A stretch of DNA of 64,000 bases. It comes from Cunninghamella blakesleeana. Taxonomy: Eukaryota; Mucoromycota; Mucoromycetes; Mucorales; Cunninghamellaceae. Within the stretch, counting starts at the first letter, position 1, and every line of letters starts with the position of its first letter. The stretch covers positions 2,709,501-2,773,500 of the forward strand of contig JAFCIZ010000001.1 of NCBI GenBank assembly GCA_017871115.1, read 5' to 3'. The notes beneath the pieces are model-generated. The model saw only the letters and a program-made list of their open reading frames with translations. It ran no database searches and was not told the origin of the DNA. Made by a program: the position numbers and the translations under genes. Below are positions 32,223-51,309 of this stretch, in pieces.

Positions 32223-33807
32223 TTAGCGAATTTCAATGGGTGGTTCTATTTCAGGAATCTTTTGTAATTCAAAAGCGCTTGCATTAAATGCTTTCATATC
32301 ATCATCATCTGTTTGTTGAGTTGTTCCATTAGTAGTCGATACTGTTGGTGTATTTGTTATTCCAAAACCTTGGTTTGATGATGATGCCAATCCCCCTACT
32401 CCACCTCCACCTCCACCTCCGAATGCATTTCCTGTATTACCTAACGCTGATGTTTGTCCAAAGCTTGATCCAGATCCTCCTAAAGATGATGTTTGACCGA
32501 ATGCCGAACCAGTATTACCAAGTGACGACGTTTGTCCAAAAGCTGATCCTCCTCCTAAGGTTGATGTTTGCCCAAAGGCTGATCCCCCTCCTAAGGTTGA
32601 TGTTTGACCAAAAGCTGACCCTCCTGAACCTAGTGATGACGTTTGGCCAAAGGCTGATCCAGTATTACCAAGTGACGACGTTTGTCCAAAAGCTGATCCA
32701 GTATTGCCTAAAGAAGATGTTTGCCCAAAAGCTGATCCTCCTGAACCTAATGAAGATGTTTGTCCAAATCCAGATCCTCCAGTCCCAAAAGTTGATGTTT
32801 GTCCAAATGCTGATCCAGTAGAACCTAATGCTGATGGTTGACCAAAAGCTGATCCAGTAGAACCTAATGTTGAAGGCTTTCCAAATGCTGAGCCGGTGGA
32901 TCCTAATGTTGATGTTTGACCAAAACCAGAAGATTGACCAAAAGCACTTGTTGATGAACCAAAACTAGACGTTTGAACGCCAGCACCACCAAAAGCTGAT
33001 CCACTACTACTATTACCAAATGCTGATGGTTTTCCAAATGCTGACGTTGTATTATTATTACTAGAATTAAAAGCTGTTTGGCCAAATACATTATTGTTAT
33101 TATTATTCGTTCCAAAACCTCCTCCTGATCCAAATCCCTTATTGGCTACAAAAGGTGCAAAAGGTGTATTCATTGCTGTAGTGTTTCCGAAACCGCCTGC
33201 TGTTTGATGACTTGATTTTTCATTTTCATAATGTTTTATTGCTGCTGCAGTGTTTCCATTAATTGCATCCACTTGATTTTCCATTTCTTGACTCTTTTGC
33301 TGATAACTAGACATCTTAAATTATATTTTATGATTTAGTATTGTTATTACTTGATACTTTATATTAATGTTACTTATATTAATGATAAAAAAAAAAAAAA
33401 GGCTTACATATTGACTATCATTTCCAGTAGTTTGCATACTAAGATAATAAGCTAATCTATCTTCTTCAGGACTACGATCTGTGCCAACAATTATATTAGG
33501 TTCTGATTTTGCAGGAGCATAAACTGAAAATGGCCACATAGGCCTATCAGTTTTAATGTCATTACGTATAGATGTTTCGCTGTTATGTTAATAATAAAAA
33601 TAATAATAATAATAGTAAACCTGCGGTTAGTATATCAAATAATAAGTATACATTGTAATAACAATAAATATCTATAAAATAAATATGACTACTTTACTGG
33701 TATTTTTCAGTAGAAGCAGCTTGTTGTCCGCCGGTTTTTATATGTTGAAATCTACAGTTGTTTCCATTATTACATGAACCATTTTGAAAGAATTTACAAA
33801 TAGCCAT
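32223..33807 (-). CDS. NUP42: CCCH zinc-finger FG nucleoporin (NUP42/hCG1-like)
   Basis: Three exons (33807-33698, 33579-33408, 33314-32223) give 457 residues. Residues 1-22 form a CCCH zinc finger with Cys4, Cys12, Cys18 and His22. A short linker (IRNDIKTDRPMWPFSVYAP) leads into a helix, then about 270 residues of Gly/Asn-rich FG repeats, mainly SAFGQTSSLG-type units, and the ending EIPEIEPPIEI. This order (CCCH, conserved linker, FG domain) is that of NUP42/Rip1, S. pombe Amo1 and human NUPL2, which sit on the cytoplasmic face of the pore and help Dbp5-Gle1 mRNA export. A GGGTTTTA element lies about 100 bp upstream. Confidence 0.9.
32440..32960 (-). repeat. Degenerate tandem repeat encoding FG units
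   Basis: Within the NUP42-like exon 3, units of about 33-39 bp encode Gly/Ser-Ala-Phe-Gly-Gln-Thr-Ser-x-Leu-Gly with small variations, roughly a dozen copies. Neighbouring copies are most alike, as expected from unequal crossing-over. Confidence 0.8.
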
Positions 33808-44645: not shown

Positions 44646-45299
44646 ATGAAGGCTTATCAAAAAGAATTTATTGAATTTGCTCTTGCCAATGACGTACTCA
44701 AGTTTGGCTCTTTCGTCTTAAAATCTGGAAGAACGTCACCTTATTTCTTCAATGCTGGATTATTCAACAGTGGCAAGACCTTGGGAGCCATTGGTCGCTT
44801 TTATGCCGCTGCTTTGGTTGATGCTGGATTCAAGTATGATGTCTTATTTGGCCCTGCTTACAAAGGAATTCCTTTAGTTTGTGCCACTGCTTTATCATTA
44901 GCCAATGATCATAATCTTGAAGCACCCTATGCATTTAATCGCAAAGAAAAAAAGGATCACGGAGAAGGAGGAAACATTGTTGGAACACCTTTAAAGGGCG
45001 ATATCTTGGTAGTGGATGATGTGATTACTGCTGGAACAGCTATTAACGAATCTATTGAAATTATTCGTGCTAATCAATGTCAAATAAGTGGTGTCTTGGT
45101 TGCTGTGGATCGTGCTGAAGTTGCTCCTGATGGCTCTGGTAAATCTGCTATTCAATCCGTTCAAGAAAAAAATAATATTCCTGTTCGTGCTATTATTACA
45201 ATGGATCATATTATGGAATTCATGGAAGAAAAAGGTACCTATGAAAAGGAACTTGCTCTTATGAAAGAATATAAAGCCCAATATGGTATTAAACAATAA
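44646..45299 (+). CDS. URA5: Orotate phosphoribosyltransferase
   Basis: An intronless ORF of 217 residues, one of the few here without introns. It transfers ribose phosphate from PRPP to orotate, making OMP in pyrimidine synthesis. The PRPP-binding signature DILVVDDVITAGTAINE is at about residues 118-134. KSGRTSPYFFNAGLF, FGPAYKGIPLV and YAFNRKEKKDHGEGG (flexible catalytic loop with the conserved Lys and Asp-His) are also present. The length fits fungal Ura5 and bacterial PyrE. Codon use is less AT-biased than in neighbours, consistent with good expression. Confidence 0.97.
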   Translation: MKAYQKEFIEFALANDVLKFGSFVLKSGRTSPYFFNAGLFNSGKTLGAIGRFYAAALVDAGFKYDVLFGPAYKGIPLVCATALSLANDHNLEAPYAFNRKEKKDHGEGGNIVGTPLKGDILVVDDVITAGTAINESIEIIRANQCQISGVLVAVDRAEVAPDGSGKSAIQSVQEKNNIPVRAIITMDHIMEFMEEKGTYEKELALMKEYKAQYGIKQ

Positions 45300-45661: not shown

Positions 45662-46675
45662 TTAATTTTTTTGATCCATATATGGGTGTCCAGCCATAGC
45701 TATATTTGTTTTTGTTTATAGTTTTTCAAAAGAAAAAAAAAAGGATTAAAAAAATTAAAATCCACTGTCCAATTGAAACATTTGCTTGAAACAAAATAAA
45801 AAATAAAAAAAAATGTATTGTTTTTTACCATTATAATAATTAGCTTGTGGTATTGAACCAGGTAATGATACAGATTGGCCAGGATGTTCACTAGGTTGTT
45901 GTACACCATATATTTGATGTTGTGATTGCTGTACTTCATCTTCTTTATCTTTAACAACAGCGTTTCTATCGATTTTTGTTGTCTAAAATATAAATATATA
46001 TAAGAATATGATTAACACTGCTACTATACCTATCTTAATCATATACATCAACAACACCACCATTTATTCCTCTGTCCATTTTCTATCATTTTCCATCGCT
46101 ATCATTTTATACTATTCTATCTTTTCTTCTTTACTTCGCGATATTTTCCAAGATAAATTTTTAAAGCTTCTGCGTAATTTTCAAATCCAAGAGATTGCAT
46201 AGCCCATAAAATGTCTTCCCCATTAATAGTTTTTCTTTTTTCTTGTTGACAACGATCACTAGCTGTATTAGAAAAAAACAAAAAATAACAAAATAATCAT
46301 AATAATAAAAGTTAAGGATAATAGAATAGTTTTGTTATTGGTTGCATTCTAAAAGAGTTAGTAGTAATATATTATATTATATATGTCTAGTAAAAAGGAT
46401 ATTCGCTAGTGATAAAGGAAATAAATTCTGATACACATTCTTGTACACATTCTTTAGCTTCCTTAGCTATCTTTGCATTGTCAGGTAAAGATTTCTTCAT
46501 AATACGTGCAACACTATTATAAAAACATGTGTTATTATTATTATTTATCGTCTCAATTATTATTAATACTGCATATTATATACTATGTAAAGTTTTCTTC
46601 TTACTTTGCAATAGGAAGGAAACGATCTTGCTCCTTTAAATCAAATTCAGCTTCGTCACCAGAATTATTAGACAT
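45662..46675 (-). CDS. HAP3: CCAAT-binding factor subunit HAP3/NF-YB
   Basis: Five exons (46675-46605, 46513-46403, 46264-46135, 45982-45829, 45699-45662) give 167 residues. The histone-fold domain covers about residues 18-105: [58 protein letters not shown] and [20 protein letters not shown]. It pairs with HAP5/NF-YC and HAP2/NF-YA to bind CCAAT boxes. A Gln/Ser-rich tail follows. The intron between exons 2 and 3 has no GT or AG that works; only an AT-AC intron restores the invariant SEASDRC. The last exon is 38 nt. A CCAAT box lies upstream. Confidence 0.95.
46265..46402 (-). other. AT-AC intron with U12-type donor in HAP3
   Basis: On the gene strand this 138-nt intron starts ATATCCTTTT, a match to the U12 donor consensus ATATCCTT, and ends TAATAC. 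A branch-like ATCCTTAAC lies at 46319-46311, about 47 nt before the acceptor, farther than usual. Splicing here joins GA to A-GCT-AGT and gives the conserved SEASDR sequence. Confidence 0.85.
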
Positions 46676-47474: not shown

Positions 47475-49077
47475 TTAAATATTGCTACCAAAATAAGGAA
47501 GCAATTGAGGATGAGATTTGGCAAATGCATAAATATAAGGTCTAGAGAATTGGAAAGGATGATCATTATAAACACCCCAATAAGAGAATCCTTCCATGAA
47601 TTTAGTAAAGAAAGCGATGCCAAAGGCTAAGACCCAAAGATGTTGAAGGGCACGTACAGCCATAGAATTGTAAATATGAGAAGGTAAATAACGTTGACTT
47701 AAAGCTTTGACAATCTTTTCAAAAATGACACCACAACCATGAATAGTAAAGAAAAACATTTGTTGGCCTATGAATAAACGGCGGTAGACTGGTAATCCTA
47801 CATTACAAAGTAACATATATTCATGCATTAATCCAGAAACAGCAAAGACAGCGACACTAGCCATGAAAAGAGAGATTCCTACATAGTATTTGGTACGTTT
47901 TGCTAAGAGACGTTGACTAACAATGAAAACAGGACGGAAAGGAAGTGCTAACCATGAAGATTTGAATAATTGATGCCATCTATAAGACCATACTTGATCC
48001 AAGGATGAGGATAAAATAGGGTCTTCCATTAATTTTCTCCATTGTTCTGTTAATATAATTAATATAAAAATAAGAATGTAAATATAAATGTCCCTTTTTT
48101 ATTCGATTTTTATTCTTCAGCTCATGTATACTTTCAAGCATTTACCTGAAGAATAAGACCCTTTATCAACAACAATACAATGGAATAAATGTAAACCAAA
48201 GCCAAGAGCATTAAAACCACATGTGATGAATAATCCTGTGATGATGAAATAAATGAATAAAAAGACTGGTTGTTGTTTTTCCATAGTCATAATATCATAG
48301 GTTGTAAAAGTAGAAACCCAAGCACTTAAAACGTCCATAATCATTACTGTTAATAACCAATATGATAATACATGATAAAATTTCTAAATAAAATAAAATA
48401 ATAAAAGTAAATAAAAAGGAGCTTAATGTTTTTTTTTTTTTTTTGATCGACATCGTACCCATCTATTTCTATTATATTTTCTTTCTCTTTATTTTCTTCC
48501 CCCTCTTTATTAAATATATATATATATATATTAAATAAAATACTTACTCTATCATTTTTATATACTTTGATTTCACCTTTTTTGACATCCTTTGTAGTTT
48601 CTTTTGCTGGTTTTGGGAATGTTTTAAGACAAGACCAAAAATCAACCCAAAGGCTATATAAAGAGGTATAAACAGGACGGTCTTGTACTAAAGGACCAAT
48701 ATAAAAAAGTTCAAGGAATCGAAGGTTAGCAGTAAAACAGAATGGACTACCAACAAGATCCAATACTATATTTTCATATTAATAATAATAAACAAATAAG
48801 TATATAATAAAAGGAAAGTATAATTTTTGACTATATAAATGAGCATATTTTATTATCATTCAATATATTTCTTACTGGGGTCACTTGAAAATATAAGAGG
48901 ATAAAGAATGTTTGCAGCAAGTAAAGGAATGGCAAGAAACTGTTTTATAATTCCAGGTATATTAGGTATAGCAATAAGTAAAGCTAAAGCGCCAGCAGGT
49001 ATAGCAAAAGTAGCAGCATAGATTGGAAAATCTAAAGTGATTCGCTCACCACTTTTTATTAATTGTAGGTATTCCAT
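47475..49077 (-). CDS. Wax-synthase-like MBOAT acyltransferase, copy A
   Basis: Four exons (49077-48876, 48765-48548, 48383-48146, 48046-47475) give 409 residues. Eight or so hydrophobic segments surround two family landmarks: SLDQVWSYRWHQLFKSSW (the wax-synthase/MBOAT_2 W-R-H-Q-F block) and SGLMHEYM, which carries the likely catalytic His. This family moves acyl chains from acyl-CoA to alcohols or diacylglycerol in the ER membrane, making wax or neutral lipids; the acceptor is not evident. The exon structure and all exon lengths equal those of copy B immediately downstream on the chromosome (upstream in transcription), so the two are tandem duplicates. Confidence 0.87.
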
Positions 49078-50215: not shown

Positions 50216-51309
50216 TTAAATATTACTACCAAAGTAGGAAAGTAATTGAGGATGAGACTTAACAAAAGTATGAATATAAGGTTTAGAGAATTGGAAAGGG
50301 TGGTGGTTAATAACGCCCCAGTATAAGAACCCTTCAAAGAAGATAGAAAAGAAAATGGCACCAAACATCATAAGCCAAATACCTTTCAAAATACGTACTG
50401 GGAATGAATTATAAATATGAGAAGGCAAGTAATGTTGACTTTGAGATTTTACAATTTTTTCAAATACTACACCACAACCATGAAGAACAAAGAAAACAGT
50501 TTGTTTACCGATAAATAATTGACGATATACGGGCCATCCAGTATTACAAAAGATCATATATTCATGCATAAATCCAGACATAGCAAATACGGCAATTGTA
50601 GCCATATAAATAGAAATATCTACATAATGCTTTGTGCTTTTAACTAAAAGACGTTGGGTGAGATCACGAACTGGACGGAAAGGGAATGGTAACCAAGTTG
50701 ATTTAAATAATGCATGCCATTTAACAGACCATAATTGATCCAAGGAAGAAGAGAAGATGGGATCTTTCATCAATTTTCTCCATTGTCCTATTTATATTTT
50801 TAAAAAATAAAATGAAAACAAAAAATAGAATGAATATTAATATATAATTACCATTCTTTTTATTTATTTTTTTGCCCTATATCAATATTGTCCTTATTTA
50901 TATTATCTATTGTTATTTCTCTTGATTTCCAATTATTTTATTTATTTACCCGAAGAATAGGATCCTTTATCGATGATAACACAGTGAAGTAATTGTAAAC
51001 TATAACCAGCAACATTGAAACCACAAGTGAGGAATAATATAACGAATATGAAGAAACCAAGGTATAATACTGGTTGTTCTTTTTCCAAGGCTAGCATATC
51101 GTAAGGGGTAAAAGAAGAAAGCCAAGCAGTTAAAATATCAAATAATATTATTGTTATTAACAAAGATGCTAATATATGGTAAAATTTCTAATGTAATAAC
51201 AATAAAAATATAAAATATAAAAAAAGAAATGAGAATCAGAATGGTCGTTTCATTCTATCTATATATTTTCTTTTTCTATTTATCTTTTTATCACTTTATT
51301 TTATACATG

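Follow-up and report, generated by a model that had tools for sequence, protein, structure and literature searches.

A predicted U12-type AT-AC intron in the HAP3 gene of Cunninghamella blakesleeana and the long branch-to-acceptor distances of candidate minor introns in its genome

Introduction

The closest described systems are animal and plant introns of the U12-type AT-AC class and the minor introns of early-diverging fungi. One review gives the 5′ site and the branch site as the defining features of U12-type introns, with an optimum of 11-13 nt between branch and acceptor and no distinct polypyrimidine tract (PMC3584512), and another describes a functional constraint that sets the U12 branch 10-20 nt from the acceptor (PMC8199999). 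Intron classifiers limit their search for the branch to 55 nt (PMC7367187) or 40 nt (PMC2846911) before the acceptor. Minor introns are reported to be lost in Ascomycota and Basidiomycota, while Rhizophagus has 205, Basidiobolus 249, Phycomyces about 20 and Rhizopus about 4 of them (PMC10639083); fungal minor introns are also known from PMC2846911. An initial sequence-only reading of the DNA analysed here had stated that U12 introns are lost in most fungi, which holds for Ascomycota and Basidiomycota but not for early-diverging fungi (PMC10639083).

The introns described below share with those of animals and plants the 5′ site ATATCCTT, the branch motif TCCTTRAC, the AT-AC ends and U11/U12/U6atac-like snRNAs. 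With Rhizopus, Phycomyces, Rhizophagus and Basidiobolus the genome shares the occurrence of minor introns and minor snRNAs outside Ascomycota and Basidiomycota. They differ from animal and plant introns in a gap between branch and acceptor that is mostly 21-50 nt long (published 10-20), in a T-rich stretch within this gap (published: no polypyrimidine tract) and in a branch consensus, TATCCTTAAC, which matches a base change in the U12 candidate. Candidate major (U2-type) introns of this genome resemble them in the T-richness of the last 35 nt and have a different 5′ site and branch motif. As a class, the minor introns of early-diverging fungi had been described before; it is the spacing that looks new. 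Titles and abstract openings, in a coverage that leaves most subscription journals outside, contained no report of fungal minor introns with extended gaps or with T-rich tracts.

Results

The AT-AC intron of HAP3

The window, which is the whole stretch of 64,000 nucleotides that was analysed, carries a HAP3/NF-YB gene on its minus strand. Its features are as follows (window positions).

45662..46675, minus strand: HAP3/NF-YB gene with five exons, open frame checked, match to Aspergillus HapC (4g91) with E 9.2e-49
46675-46605, 46513-46403, 46264-46135, 45982-45829 and 45699-45662, minus strand: exons, by frame check
46514..46604, minus strand: intron 1, GT-AG, 91 nt, by frame check
46265..46402, minus strand: intron 2, AT-AC, 138 nt, phase 2, top among 530 splice choices
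45983..46134, minus strand: intron 3, GT-AG, 152 nt, by frame check
45700..45828, minus strand: intron 4, GT-AG, 129 nt, by frame check
46391..46402, minus strand: U12-type 5′ splice site ATATCCTTTTTA, agreeing with RTATCCTT, a motif counted genome-wide
46357..46363, minus strand: TACTAAC, matching a U2-type branch motif and lying upstream of the U12 branch site
46311..46318, minus strand: U12-type branch site TCCTTAAC, agreeing with TCCTTRAC, predicted branch A at 46312
46265..46310, minus strand: T-rich spacer from the branch site to the acceptor TAATAC, free of AC and AG up to the acceptor

Exon 2 ends with ACTAGCGA, intron 2 starts with ATATCCTTTTTA and ends with TAATAC, and exon 3 starts with AGCTAGTGATCG. 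Excision of 46402-46265 brings the residues E-A-S-D-R back into the HAP3 frame in phase 2. The spliced protein contains the NF-YB histone fold, its ungapped alignment with HapC extends over 92 residues (E 9.2e-49), and the NF-YB proteins of human and plant match it likewise. The HapC match, the gene content and the low G+C are in keeping with a fungal source. We scored 530 splice combinations (GT-AG, GC-AG, AT-AC, AT-AG and GT-AC) against HapC, and AT-AC 46402-46265 obtained the top score of 362. It is followed by AT-AG 46400-46263, which is shifted by two bases, alters one residue and lacks the U12 5′ consensus (score 359), and by the top GC-AG choice 46406-46263, which has the non-consensus donor GCGAAT and costs two residues (338). 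The top GT-AG choice deletes part of the histone fold (277), and retention of the intron leads to an early stop (166). The sequence-only reading had claimed an AT-AC intron with a U12-type donor inside the HAP3 histone fold, ending in TAATAC, whose removal restores an NF-YB protein where no GT donor gives a sensible product, and it was right on each of these points.

Intron 2 has the 5′ site, the branch site and the AT-AC ends of a U12-type intron and, judged by these signals, is almost certainly one. Among the 11 RTATCCTT sites in the 64-kb window, that of HAP3 is the only one with an exact TCCTTRAC within 400 nt. The intron departs both from the typical 10-20 nt gap, with branch A 46312 lying 47 nt from the last intron base, and from the typical absence of a polypyrimidine tract.

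Several neighbouring reading frames were noted. Two clearly similar frames on the minus strand (47475-48029 and 50216-50773), both ending in ...SHPQLL.YFGSNI, suggest a tandem duplication beside HAP3; we take them to be acyltransferase-like. A minus-strand frame at 32223-33314 is rich in FG-type repeats (SAFGQTSSLG) and is presumably nucleoporin-like, and the frame convergent with HAP3 (44646-45299, plus strand) presumably resembles orotate phosphoribosyltransferase.

Components of the minor spliceosome

Component searches covered the whole genome (31.9 Mb, 12 contigs). Rfam models identified a U11 snRNA with 70 bits (cut-off 39) and a U6atac snRNA with 54.5 bits (cut-off 33), while the one full-length U12 candidate, at 38.2 bits, is under the Rfam cut-off of 53. 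The protein U11/U12-25K (PF18036) was found with 50.7 bits against a cut-off of 22.8. The 5′ start of U11, AAAAAGGG, is complementary to CCTTTTT of the donor, U6atac contains GAAAGGAGAGAA, and the U12 candidate contains GAGUAAGGAUAA plus an Sm-like AAUUUUUUG.

Loose first-look searches of the whole genome gave no Rfam match for U4atac, and the zinc finger of U11-48K, represented by a short model, was not found in the genome. Two patterns for U4atac were built from the complement of the U6atac of this genome and the layout of U4atac/U6atac pairing; the second had 6 matches compared to 4 for the control, one of them being the opposite strand of U6atac itself. Rfam assigns nothing convincing to the U4atac candidates L126-L130, and L130 appears by eye to be part of a repeat.

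A minor spliceosome had been implied from the HAP3 intron, and the total absence of its components had been named as grounds for giving up that intron. The absence is not total: the genome has U11, U6atac and U11/U12-25K above cut-off and a U12 candidate below it. U4atac and the U11-48K finger did not turn up in the loose first-look searches. From these matches it is nearly certain that a minor spliceosome exists in this genome.

Other U12-type introns in the genome

The motif RTATCCTT followed after 21-81 nt by TCCTTRAC has 19 matches in the genome compared to 1 for a reversed control, and a spacing of 81-141 nt gives 16 matches compared to 2. The bare donor RTATCCTTTTTW occurs at 581 sites; this is weaker evidence, because the control already reaches 138. 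On the basis of reading frames and homology, 13 of the 19 short-range and 8 of the 16 long-range matches were judged to be introns in genes. Rejected were six short-range matches (L015, L016, L024-L027) and six long-range ones after inspection (L132, L134, L135, L141-L143), two more on contig 9 being set aside. Among the 100 donor sites listed (of 581; first 4.5 Mb of contig 1), which were scored in a common pool of which the best 45 were inspected, there are 8 U12-type introns, and L029, L082 and L111 were newly added from this source. By rough extrapolation the genome would contain about 46 introns carrying this donor motif. Two loci, L073 and L083, were not accepted as U12-type introns.

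The total is 24 U12-type candidates including HAP3 (19 AT-AC, 4 GT-AG and one with odd ends), thus at least 23 besides HAP3. The affected genes are varied (CLP1, importin, Gaa1, CDK and others).

At L021, perfect U12 donor and branch sites precede a FancD2-like exon, and the frame is kept only if the intron ends in CA, or if it starts one base earlier and ends in AC. This locus is counted among the 24 but excluded from every AT-AC count.

Nine of the 24 introns (HAP3, L013, L018, L020, L021, L082, L111, L138, L140) contain a U2-type branch motif, ACTAAC or ACTAAT, in the segment that separates the donor from the U12 branch site. In shuffled sequences the mean is 2.35 and nine was reached in 0 of 500 trials, in a test that is post hoc, the pattern having first been seen by eye.

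Distance from branch to acceptor

The motif searches constrained the distance from donor to branch and left that from branch to acceptor free. Counted from the branch A to the last intron base, the gaps of the 19 AT-AC introns are 11, 12, 14, 21, 24, 27, 30, 32, 35, 35, 35, 35, 36, 37, 37, 38, 47, 47 and 50 nt, with a median of 35 nt; 16 of them exceed 20 nt, and three keep the classic 11-14 nt. The four GT-AG introns have gaps of 36, 50, 66 and 74 nt. The branch site at 47 nt, to which the sequence-only reading had drawn attention as unusual, is present and exact but is not an oddity of HAP3, since such gaps are typical of the genome.

Eight AT-AC junctions are spanned by a Pfam match over cut-off or by a match to a solved structure. 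Homology-spanned gaps are listed here.

AT-AC: HAP3, 47 nt; importin-beta N-terminal domain, 37 nt; Npa1, 35 nt; DNA-PKcs CC3, 32 nt
AT-AC: CLP1, 30 nt; Brr6-like, 24 nt; Gaa1, 14 nt; CDK, 11 nt
GT-AG: dynactin p22, 50 nt; WAC, 74 nt

Matches to a GTF3C4-like zinc finger (gap 12), a cullin (66) and a TBC domain (50) are weak at the junction. By locus, cross-junction matches are weak for L022 and L133 and very weak for L028. For L137 the Pfam match begins just beyond the junction while the structure match extends to three residues before it, and for L023 the match is confined to the downstream exon; a cross-junction match is uninformative or absent for L010, L013, L017, L020, L110, L136, L139 and L140. 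Most acceptors lacking a homology match were set by eye from the reading frame. At six loci (L020, L022, L029, L082, L110, L111) the acceptor suggested by the coding score was shifted nearer after the frame had been read, which biases the data against long gaps. Long branch-to-acceptor gaps seem to be the rule in this genome, and we consider it very likely that this rule would survive RNA data.

Predicted folding provides no general answer to the long gaps, although it may do so for a few introns. In the 24 introns it shortens the branch-to-acceptor path in six, to 20 nt or less in L013, L023 and L133, and the median falls only from 35 to 33. None of 200 shuffles folds as well as HAP3 intron 2 is predicted to do (z -2.75), and the predicted fold of this intron places the U12 branch site within a hairpin. 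This hairpin was rejected as a bridge across the gap, the predicted path from branch to acceptor falling merely from 47 to 44.

Spacer composition and acceptor choice

In 18 AT-AC introns, the spacer between branch site and acceptor is 65% T and 75% pyrimidine, compared to 43% T between donor and branch. AC or AG occurs at 5 of 356 spacer positions compared to 79 of 1298 positions between donor and branch. This depletion is mostly compositional, because shuffling the spacer letters leaves a mean of 10.9 introns free of AC and AG, and 14 or more are reached at P 0.0585. Counting from 8 nt past the branch motif, the first AC or AG to be met is the used AC in 14 of the 18 introns; in the remaining four the used AC sits 2-7 nt after an earlier one.

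The last 35 nt have a T fraction of 0.57-0.58 in 32 major-intron candidates and of 0.54-0.70 in 22 U12-type introns. The two kinds of 3′ end look alike here because both are T-rich, in a comparison with a weak control: a branch-like motif is in range in only 10 of the 32 major-intron candidates (median gap 29.5), and all three control sets, of 2, 23 and 32 candidates with progressively looser filters, are weak.

A matched base change in U12 and the branch sites

Where the Rfam consensus of U12 has AAGGAAAA, the candidate of this genome has AAGGAUAA, and this base change is matched by the branch consensus TATCCTTAAC. In 16 of the 24 introns the branch site has an A opposite the altered base of U12 (P 0.01 compared to local A content), and TATCC is present in 13 of 24 branch sites, in a set for which the branch motif was a search requirement in 21 of 24 cases. 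The predicted pairing energy averages -8.18 kcal/mol with the genome's own U12 and -6.55 kcal/mol with the consensus base; the own U12 is better in 18 introns, equal in one and worse in five. The match is modest evidence, in favour of the U12 candidate and the branch sites jointly.

Discussion

Our main reading, to which we assign a probability of about 0.8, is that the AT-AC intron of HAP3 is removed by the genome's own minor spliceosome, which probably tolerates a long T-rich stretch between branch and acceptor. U11 would pair with CCTTTTT of the donor, and the U12 candidate with its GAGUAAGGAUAA would pair with TATCCTTAAC by way of the matched base change. U6atac would next take over the donor, and the second step would use the AC 47 nt downstream of the branch. 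As a guess, a factor resembling U2AF or ZRSR2 might bind the T-rich stretch, as happens in major introns. The layout would then characterise minor splicing in this lineage and not HAP3.

In our reading the data point to a minor spliceosome with 3′-end requirements that are relaxed and U2-like, and we infer that either scanning or a tract-binding factor may lead to the acceptor. The human U12 spliceosome, in work by Dietrich and others (2001), reportedly failed to scan to a distal acceptor. A broader and more tentative proposal, which we hold slightly less probable than its opposite, is that the minor spliceosome of this lineage has lost a fixed branch-to-acceptor ruler. It would have a U2-like 3′ end with a T-rich tract and an acceptor mostly 21-74 nt away, located either through scanning or through a tract-binding factor that the major spliceosome also uses, while U12 and the branch consensus would have changed together; the U2-type ACTAAY in 9 of 24 introns would belong to this picture.

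One alternative is an ordinary U12-type intron, in which a degenerate branch 8-20 nt from the acceptor is used and the perfect TCCTTAAC is idle or one of two. Published U12 introns, with 10-20 nt and an optimum of 11-13 (PMC3584512, PMC8199999), would fit this, as would the gaps of 11, 12 and 14 nt in three AT-AC introns of this genome. Yet where the gap exceeds 21 nt, the closest approach to a branch motif at 8-21 nt before the acceptor agrees at only 4-5 of 8 positions, compared to 7-8 of 8 at the distant site; the exception is a GT-AG intron (L133) with a 6 of 8 site at 21 nt. The exact branch motif, moreover, trails the donor far above control and fits the genome's own U12, and we regard this alternative as unlikely.

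The sequence-only reading had also seen in HAP3 a regulatory choke point, where slow minor splicing limits HAP3 and hence many genes. This is an additional claim, compatible with removal by the minor spliceosome, and it has no support yet. Retention would halt translation when little more than half of the histone fold has been made, and U12-type introns are reportedly spliced less efficiently in flies (PMC2952598). The U12-type introns elsewhere in the genome, however, hit a mixture of genes (CLP1, importin, Gaa1, CDK, others), and in Rhizophagus minor splicing showed no link to proliferation (PMC10639083); we think a choke point improbable.

That the major spliceosome removes a non-consensus intron (GC-AG 46406-46263 or AT-AG 46400-46263) which looks U12-like by chance is highly improbable: both choices preserve the frame with scores of 338 and 359 compared to 362, and intron 2 does contain TACTAAC, but neither has a consensus donor, and exact U12 donor and branch motifs recur genome-wide together with matching snRNAs.

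If removal by a minor spliceosome tolerant of such spacing is true, this genome, with its two dozen candidates that mostly depart from both the 10-20 nt spacing and the missing polypyrimidine tract of the reviews, would show that the constraint is not built into the minor spliceosome. Long-gap introns could be overlooked by surveys whose search for the branch stops 40 or 55 nt from the acceptor. The organism would then offer a system for asking what sets the branch-to-acceptor ruler.
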